NCBI GenBank assembly: GCA_947629235.1
Contig: CANRCX010000015.1
Location: forward strand, 1-36,194
Length of the DNA: 36,194 nt
Origin: an uncultured Bacilli bacterium
GTDB lineage: Bacteria > Bacillota_I > Bacilli_A > RF39 > UBA660
Direction of reading: 5' to 3'
Part shown: positions 33,685 to 36,096 of the stretch, piece by piece
Position numbering within the stretch: position 1 is the stretch's first letter
Layout of the letters: the number at the start of each line of letters is the position of its first letter
The notes under the pieces: generated by a model
Database searches by the model: none
The model's input: only the letters and a program-made list of their open reading frames with translations
What the model was told of the DNA's origin: nothing
Made by a program: the position numbers and the translations under genes

Positions 33685-33708
33685 GAGTTAAATTTCATTA
33701 ATTAACTC
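33685..33708 (-). terminator. Terminator formed by the 3' end of the TIM-like gene (GAGTTAA/TTAACTC + T-run)
   Basis: 7-bp stem followed on the minus strand by TTTTTCTTTTT; the TAA stop (33688-33690) lies in the stem. Confidence 0.7.
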
Positions 33709-34395
33709 CTTTAATTTGTTAATATCAGTACTATATGAATCTACAATAATTCCATCACTTACATTTAATATATCTTTTACATTATTTGAATCAACATAAC
33801 CACCATAATATACTTCTATATTAATATCGTATTTATTATTCATATATTTTTTTAATAATTCTATTGTTTTTGATATTTTATCTACATCATATTCAATTTC
33901 ACCTATTGCTGAAGATGGAATATATGCTAAACTTAAATATTTTAAATTATTTGATTCTATTGATTTTAAATAATAATTTAATTCTGTTTTTAAATAATTA
34001 AATGGTTTTCTTTTTTTAATTGATTCACCTATGCATAATATTGTTTCACATTTAGAACTAAGTGATTTAAATAATTTTTCTTTTGATTCTTCATATGGTT
34101 CATACATTAATTTTCTTCTTTCATAAAGTCCTACTAATGTGTAATTAATACCAATATCTTTTAATGATTCTAAATTTATTTCACCACTAAATGAACCTGT
34201 TTTATAACTATAAAAATTTTGTGTTCCAACTTTATAATCTACATTTTTAAATAATGTTAAATAAAGAATTGGTGGAAATATTATGAATTCAAAATTATCA
34301 TGTTTTAATTTTTCAAATTCTTTTTTAAAATCTACCATTTCTTTATATAAGAAATAACTTTTTTGATTTAAAATTATTTTTTTCATATTAACCAT
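33688..34395 (-). CDS. Triosephosphate isomerase-like protein, predicted catalytically dead
   Basis: VGTQNFYSYKTGSFSGEI, GLYERRKLM, CIGES, AYIPSSAIG, YYGGYVDSNN align to TIM, but His95 and Glu165 are replaced. Confidence 0.85.
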   Translation of the reverse strand: MVNMKKIILNQKSYFLYKEMVDFKKEFEKLKHDNFEFIIFPPILYLTLFKNVDYKVGTQNFYSYKTGSFSGEINLESLKDIGINYTLVGLYERRKLMYEPYEESKEKLFKSLSSKCETILCIGESIKKRKPFNYLKTELNYYLKSIESNNLKYLSLAYIPSSAIGEIEYDVDKISKTIELLKKYMNNKYDINIEVYYGGYVDSNNVKDILNVSDGIIVDSYSTDINKLKELINEI

Positions 34396-35527
34396 TTAAT
34401 CTACTAAGAGTTTTAAATTTCTTTCCTTCTAAATATTCAAGTGTAGATCCACCACCAGTTGAAACATAATATACATGTGTATCAAAGTATTTAGAAGCTC
34501 CAGTTATATCACCACCAGCTAATATTGTTGGAAATTTTTGACCTTCTAAATATTTTAATATTTCTTTTGTACCATTTTCATAAGCTTTTTCTTCATATTT
34601 TCCAAGTGGCCCATTCCATAATACAAGTGTACTATCAAAAAGAGCCTCTTTAAATCTTTCTATAGTCTCAGGTCCAATATCATAACCAATGTCATCATCA
34701 TCCATATCTTTAATATTTTTAATTCCATTTTGAGTTACAATATCTATTGGTAAAACCATTTTTTCACCATATTTATTTATTAAATTTTGTACATAATCAA
34801 TATTTTCTTCACTAACTGGACTCTTTCCTACATTATATCCTTTAACTCTTAAGAACGTAAAACACATAGCACCAGCTAATAATACTCTTTTAGTATTATC
34901 GATTAAATTATCAATAACACCTATTTTATCACTTACCTTAGCTCCACCTAATATTAATGTTTTATCTTGATTTATTGCTTTATCTAAAACATCTGTTTCT
35001 TCTTTTACTAAAAATCCTGCATAAGATGGTATATATTTAGATATTCCATAAGTTGATGCATGACATCTATGGGCAGATCCAAATGCATCAAGTACAAATA
35101 TATCTCCTAAAGATGCCCAATATTTTGATAAAGCTTCATCACAAGAACTTTCAAGCTTAGTAGGAAAATCTTCAAATCTAGTATTTTCTACAAGTAATAT
35201 TTCACCATTTTGTAAATTATTTACAGTAGTTTCTAATAACTCACCACGAGTTTTTGCTACAAAATAAACAGGACAATTTACTAATGTAGTTAAATGTTTA
35301 GCTACATCAACTAAACTATTTTTCTTTTTATCTTCTTCACTTTCAACTCTTCCTAAATGTGATAATAATATTACTTTAGCTTGATGCTCAATTAAATAAT
35401 TAATAGTTTTTAAACTACCAACTATTCTAGTATCATCAAGTATTTTTCCATCTTTTCTTGGAACATTAAAGTCAACTCTTACTATAACTTTTTTACCTTT
35501 AACATCTGCATCACTTATAACTTTCAT
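34388..35527 (-). CDS. pgk: Phosphoglycerate kinase
   Basis: VRVDFNVP, LSHLGR, LVENTRF, LGGAKVSDKIGVI, WNGPLG, STGGGSTLEYLEG. Confidence 0.96.
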   Translation of the reverse strand: MKVISDADVKGKKVIVRVDFNVPRKDGKILDDTRIVGSLKTINYLIEHQAKVILLSHLGRVESEEDKKKNSLVDVAKHLTTLVNCPVYFVAKTRGELLETTVNNLQNGEILLVENTRFEDFPTKLESSCDEALSKYWASLGDIFVLDAFGSAHRCHASTYGISKYIPSYAGFLVKEETDVLDKAINQDKTLILGGAKVSDKIGVIDNLIDNTKRVLLAGAMCFTFLRVKGYNVGKSPVSEENIDYVQNLINKYGEKMVLPIDIVTQNGIKNIKDMDDDDIGYDIGPETIERFKEALFDSTLVLWNGPLGKYEEKAYENGTKEILKYLEGQKFPTILAGGDITGASKYFDTHVYYVSTGGGSTLEYLEGKKFKTLSRLNG

Positions 35528-35538
35528 AAAAAATATAC

Positions 35539-36096
35539 CTACCTTTCAATTTCTGTGTATAATTTTTTAGCATCTTCTTTTAATTTATCTAATGTCGTAT
35601 TTACAATTTCAACATCATAATCTTTAAAGTCATCAAGATCTACTTCTGTTTTATGTTTCTTTTGTTCTTCACTAAGACCATTATCAAAATTAATTCTATC
35701 AATATGTATTAACTTTAAATCTGGAAATGCTTTCTTTAATTCATTTATTTCAAGTTTAAGTCTTACATCACTAATAATTACTGCATCATAGAAGCAAGAG
35801 AATATTTCAATATCTTCTTTCATTCTATCAACAAATAGCATTTCTTTACCAAGTTTTTCTCTAATTACTTGTGTACCTAATTGTTGTAATAATTCTCTTG
35901 GTTTAGTTTCATCCTTTAAATCCCATCCTGTCATTTCACTTGCATAATACTTAATATATTTTGCAAGATGTGTCACAATTGCAGTTTTACCGTTTTCTTC
36001 ATATGCATCTTTTAAGTATCCTGCAAATGTATCCTTTCCATGTCTTGCTTTACCAGCAATAATATAAATTTTTGGTTTTGTTTCTTTTACTTCCAT
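35539..36096 (-). CDS. P-loop kinase, possibly dNMP kinase-like
   Basis: IIAGKARHGKDTFAGYL Walker A; RELLQQLGTQVIREK; IISDVRLKLEINEL. Confidence 0.65.
   Translation of the reverse strand: MEVKETKPKIYIIAGKARHGKDTFAGYLKDAYEENGKTAIVTHLAKYIKYYASEMTGWDLKDETKPRELLQQLGTQVIREKLGKEMLFVDRMKEDIEIFSCFYDAVIISDVRLKLEINELKKAFPDLKLIHIDRINFDNGLSEEQKKHKTEVDLDDFKDYDVEIVNTTLDKLKEDAKKLYTEIER

Follow-up and report, generated by a model that had tools for sequence, protein, structure and literature searches.

Triosephosphate isomerase (TIM) is the textbook near-perfect enzyme, and substitutions of Glu165 and His95 are known to have severe effects on its activity. The protein described here is encoded in a window of 36,194 nucleotides (the whole stretch of DNA analyzed) from an uncultured Bacilli bacterium. 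Canonical TIMs (TpiA, PF00121; e.g., 2jgq from H. pylori and 5ujw from F. tularensis) share with it the fold, Lys12, Asn10, Glu97, the loop-3 region and the pgk-tpiA gene order; the window protein differs from them in having Leu95, Ile165, Ser168, Tyr211 and Asp232, together with an unconserved loop 6 that carries a one-residue deletion. The bifunctional PGK-TIM (NCBIfam PRK13962) presents the same order, with phosphoglycerate kinase (PGK) followed by TIM, and both halves match its model, whereas in the window the ORFs are separate, the pgk stop preceding Met4 of TIM, and the TIM half is catalytically incomplete.

Other described systems resemble the window protein in kind. The engineered dead TPI K13M (human/Drosophila) is likewise a folded TIM, dimeric, non-catalytic and biologically effective: its fold and dimer are kept, and it partially rescues Drosophila TPI mutants (PMC4816394). 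It is, however, artificial and eukaryotic, and Lys13 is lost there but kept in the window TIM; its effects in Drosophila show that a non-catalytic role is possible in principle, without implying that the same applies to the window TIM. Prozyme-type pseudoenzymes, such as that of trypanosome AdoMetDC (PMC6221367), are also dead homologues under selection, but no active paralogue is seen in the assembly of the window genome. No natural TIM pseudoenzyme was found in the open-access literature (subscription papers were outside the scope of the search), and the window TIM is most likely new in its details and a pseudoenzyme of a known kind.

Gene structure, fold and active-site residues

The TIM ORF (33688-34395, minus strand) encodes 235 aa in an intact frame, with 18% GC. 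The upstream ATG (Met1) is not the start kept among relatives; the conserved start is Met4 (34386), and M4-K5 are invariant across the genus. Counted from Met4, the gene starts 1 nt past the pgk stop, and the overlap with pgk reported in the first-pass annotation exists only with the upstream ATG. The features of the locus are the following:

33688..34386, minus strand: pseudo-TIM ORF derived from tpiA, counted from Met4, the conserved start (AF2 model, Pfam TIM)
34360..34362, minus strand: codon AAA, catalytic Lys12, retained
34126..34128, minus strand: codon CTT, Leu90, TIM position 95, where nearly all relatives have the catalytic His
33919..33921, minus strand: codon ATT, Ile159, TIM position 165, where most relatives have the catalytic Glu
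33910..33912, minus strand: codon TCA, Ser162, TIM position 168, loop-6 hinge Trp gone
33796..33798, minus strand: codon TAT, Tyr200, TIM position 211, phosphate-binding Ser gone
33739..33741, minus strand: codon GAT, Asp219, TIM position 232, phosphate-binding Gly in canonical TIM
34388..35527, minus strand: pgk, phosphoglycerate kinase, directly upstream of the TIM ORF in the same orientation
35539..36096, minus strand: deoxynucleotide-monophosphate-kinase-like gene (DNMK), upstream of pgk, conserved genus-wide

Homology to TIM at the level of the fold, proposed from the sequence alone, was confirmed by two approaches. The sole Pfam match of the ORF is PF00121 TIM (126.7 bits against a gathering cut-off of 20.1, E=1.4e-36, residues 7-234), and the AlphaFold (AF2) model is a TIM barrel (pLDDT 93.4, pTM 0.92) whose best PDB matches are all TIMs (TM ~0.9); loop 6 is its lowest-certainty part (block mean 76). 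Gap-free alignments with PDB entries place GLYERR over GHSERR and AYIPSSAIG over AYEP(V/I)WAIG. Together with the codons, they establish the changes His95 to Leu (CTT versus CAT in sisters), Glu165 to Ile (ATT versus GAA in active relatives), Trp168 to Ser (TCA versus TGG), Ser211 to Tyr and Gly232 to Asp (GAT versus GGN), so that Gly232-Gly233 of the phosphate site reads Asp-Ser. The reported loss of His95, Glu165 and the loop-6 Trp is borne out by these alignments, by those with sister proteins and by the codons, as is, for Gly232-Gly233, the reported change of the phosphate-site GGAS to DSYS; Lys12, said to be kept, is indeed invariant, as is Asn10, and Glu97 is also retained. No conserved acid in loop 6 stands in for Glu165. 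A shift in the alignment masking His or Glu is excluded, the region being ungapped against sisters at 51-65% identity, and so is a sequencing error, since a separately assembled species (G159; 94% protein identity) has identical changes. The protein thus has the Lys12 of a functional TIM (EC 5.3.1.1) and lacks His95, Glu165/Trp168 and Ser211/Gly232-Gly233. The equivalog cut-offs for functional TIM are missed as well (TIGR00419, 63.2 versus 130.6; NF000728, 98.3 versus 255), an observation that concerns the window protein only and is weak when taken alone. Judging from these residues, isomerase activity has probably been lost.

The genome carrying the window (G000) is represented by an assembly that is 91.7% complete, in which no second TIM was found. 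The canonical tpiA that the first-pass annotation proposed searching for is therefore not detected in the same genome, nor is one in the five other genus genomes in which position 165 is Ile or Val; the probability that one gene is absent by chance from all six assemblies is ~5e-6. As far as the assembly shows, a prozyme model, with the protein as activator of an active TIM, is ruled out by the lack of an active paralogue. A bin of the same genus, G160, contains two TIMs (C9:7960-8670 and C1:2853-3536), one resembling canonical TIMs and the other being of the genus type, and is likely a mixed bin, given its 6% contamination.

Stepwise change among relatives and selection

Our survey covered ~160 related genomes, including 147 family genomes and the genus genomes. 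TIM is present in 120 of the 147, with scores from 265 down to 53 bits, and absent from the other 27; the K-H-E triad is intact in 119 family TIM sequences (genus genomes counted in), and Lys12 is retained in every family TIM covering the site. Within the genus the triad reads K-H-E in G060, G153 and G160, K-H-D in G155, K-H-I in G149 and G150, K-H-V in G147, and K-L-I in G000 and G159, with Ile165 also in a fragment from G156. Glu165 has thus become Ile or Val in six species and His95 has become Leu in two, all of one genus, and the loss of TIM residues, as read from these sequences, is stepwise within it. The question of whether Leu and Ile are conserved at the two sites across relatives has a divided answer: Ile/Val165 is shared by the six species, all of them with Asp232, while Leu95 is confined to two. 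Asp232 occurs in 7/7 TIMs whose residue 165 is Ile, Val or Ser (among them all six genus species with Ile/Val165) and in 0/135 with Glu165, the seven representing two independent events; Gly is found at 232 in G155 (Asp165) and in G052 (His165). The Ile/Val165 species as one group are compatible with the trees of both PGK and TIM, with moderate support.

Outside the genus, G068 (L064) reads K-T-S (Thr95/Ser165), again with Asp232, and G052 (L058) reads K-E-H (Glu95/His165) with loop 6 deleted; by their sequences, both are further, independent losses of the triad. The TIM branch of G155 (L051; Glu165Asp) is ~2x the PGK branch and >3x the DNMK branch, and is an independent erosion event. Named relatives include rabbit “Lapin” isolates, RUG-series and goat-caecum MAGs, labeled uncultured Bacilli, Erysipelotrichaceae or Tenericutes; the lineage may belong to an RF39-like order.

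The TIM gene has also been lost outright at least two times in the genus (G148/G162/G157/G158 and G151/G152); no TIM remnant was found in these six members, in which pgk is intact and followed by other genes. Their existence bears on the suggestion that the window TIM is a scaffold for PGK, or more broadly a separate protein equivalent to the TIM half of PGK-TIM that stabilizes or regulates PGK. The pgk-tpiA order is kept in 108/108 loci where both genes were seen, the 1-nt spacing suggests coupled translation, and among NCBIfam models that of the PGK-TIM fusion scores best for PGK and second best for TIM. Nonetheless, this order was inherited from an active ancestor and hence is no specific evidence of partnership, and PGK survives without TIM in six sisters. 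A necessary partnership, and with it the scaffold as a necessary role, is therefore unlikely, an optional one is possible, and we regard the PGK reading as a whole as rather improbable.

Selection was estimated from G000 and G159 with a pairwise codon model. Their TIMs differ with dN 0.027 and dS 0.98 (omega 0.028), omega=1 is rejected (2dlnL 95), and the differences at codon positions 1/2/3 number 8/4/33; this omega comes from one species pair, the double loss being present in just two genomes, and omega beyond that pair is unreliable, dS being saturated. The corresponding PGK omega is 0.040, on a par with that of TIM, in support of the earlier view that the gene is being preserved and is not in decay. 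On a fixed tree, the stem branch leading to G000 and G159 measures 0.34 for TIM, 0.07 for PGK and 0.10 for DNMK, and the two tips summed measure 0.07, 0.07 and 0.11. There was, then, a TIM-specific burst of replacements on this stem, after which TIM was constrained as strongly as PGK, a pattern that fits a change of function and not decay.

Neutral decay caught early would make the ORF the unbroken relic of a TIM rendered useless by the switch to phosphoketolase. The outright losses in two or more clades of the genus and the 27/147 family genomes without TIM would agree with it, as would the rate of TIM relative to PGK, ~1.5x higher among pseudo-TIMs than among K-H-E relatives. Against it stand the omega of 0.028 after both residues were gone, the six species without stops and a tip rate equal to that of PGK; relatives had intact ORFs and not inactivated ones, and simulated neutral drift at 0.2 substitutions per site broke every copy of the ORF. 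Decay is largely refuted by omega, and we consider it very unlikely. In this sense, the window TIM lacks both the disrupted frame and the omega near 1 of a pseudogene, and combines, as a pseudoenzyme does, the loss of essential catalytic residues with later purifying selection (in the one species pair).

Metabolic context and candidate roles

Gene content was assessed one family at a time. Phosphoketolase directly yields glyceraldehyde-3-phosphate and acetyl phosphate. All 18/18 genus genomes have phosphoketolase and 0/18 have class II FBA, so glyceraldehyde-3-phosphate should form without DHAP; since G000 encodes both GAPDH and PGK, its lower glycolysis can proceed in the absence of TIM. Acetate kinase, identified by reading the sequence, is also present in G000. 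Among 80 genomes picked by TIM state and surveyed for PF07479, PF01116, PF03894 and PF00365, class II FBA occurs in 22/22 with TIM >240 bits, 4/33 with TIM <190 bits and 3/25 without TIM, and phosphoketolase in 3/22, 30/33 and 24/25, respectively (Fisher p 7e-15, descriptive only, the relatives being non-independent). Twenty-three of the 80 have FBA only, 51 phosphoketolase only, six both and none neither; this near mutual exclusion amounts to repeated switching of central sugar metabolism in a single family, and the cause of the relaxed constraint on TIM appears to be metabolic. A search for class I FBA (PF00274) was uninformative, since it gave no match in the 14 control genomes either.

GpsA is present in G000 (C7:44326-44748, minus strand) and in several sisters, and is kept in genomes without TIM, FBA or glycerol kinase. 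Its presence is relevant to the proposal that the window TIM is a weak isomerase, acting through Lys12 and a substitute base, that provides small amounts of DHAP for making glycerol-3-phosphate. Lys12 and Asn10 are invariant, and no known FBA, DeoC/LacD-type aldolase or glycerol kinase was found in G000 and the GpsA-bearing sisters. Mycoplasma hominis offers a parallel: it has phosphoketolase and GpsA and has kept the lower pathway, TIM included, and TIM is proposed there to connect GpsA with lower glycolysis (PMC2751442). On the other hand, the base, the electrophile and the phosphate-contact residues are all replaced, with no loop-6 acid to serve for Glu165; GpsA persists in TIM-less genus members, and therefore another source of DHAP or G3P exists; and in G159, which carries the pseudo-TIM, no GpsA was detected. 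Such a weak activity is, in our judgment, quite unlikely.

A PPi-dependent phosphofructokinase is also encoded in G000 (C13:5056-6279, minus strand; L185; PRK14072, 497.8 bits), and its 77-79% identity to the copies of G039 and G101 suggests horizontal transfer. The enzyme is found in 5/6 genus genomes with Ile/Val165, the only other match in the genus being a different 565-aa type (G161), and no known FBA was found in any of the six. In such species TIM might have acquired a new catalysis, for instance as a Lys12 lyase. The same phosphofructokinase nevertheless occurs in TIM-less G039 and G101 and in K-H-E G038 and G021; it maps with the pseudo-TIM to one clade, where their co-occurrence may be a single coincidence, and the phosphate site is gone, all of which makes such a lyase extremely improbable. 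A broader possibility, a novel function, catalytic or sensory, connected with phosphoketolase/PPi-PFK metabolism, e.g., Lys12-dependent on sugar phosphates, with its intermediates living in one genus (Glu165Asp; Ile/Val165 with His95; Ile165 with Leu95), is also unlikely.

We consider it likely that the window protein is a genuine pseudoenzyme of the TIM family, derived from the tpiA next to pgk in an uncultured lineage of AT-rich gut Bacilli and selected for a non-isomerase role after the switch to phosphoketolase. Phosphoketolase would first have replaced the aldolase/TIM half of glycolysis, and TIM flux may no longer have been needed. Glu165 then gave way to Ile or Val, and Gly232 to Asp, in a single clade within the genus; these changes removed the catalytic base and placed an acid in the phosphate site, presumably with loss of activity. 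On the stem of G000 and G159, His95, Trp168 and many other residues changed in the burst that preceded strong purifying selection. The protein would thus have been kept for something besides triose isomerization, as a repurposed TIM. We favor a role in binding or scaffolding, unrelated to isomerization, for a folded and probably dimeric protein, because the loop-3 residues and Lys12/Glu97 are kept; retention of the dimer is suggested by the conservation of loop 3. Asp232 may pair with Lys12, fill the phosphate site and occlude the old pocket. The outright loss of the gene in sister species counts against this reading, and any such role is therefore dispensable at the genus level.

A dead yet conserved TIM, with its intermediates and a likely metabolic cause visible in relatives, would allow testing of the route from an essential enzyme to a pseudoenzyme once its pathway has been replaced, and would also test whether the non-catalytic functions of TIM alone sustain selection.
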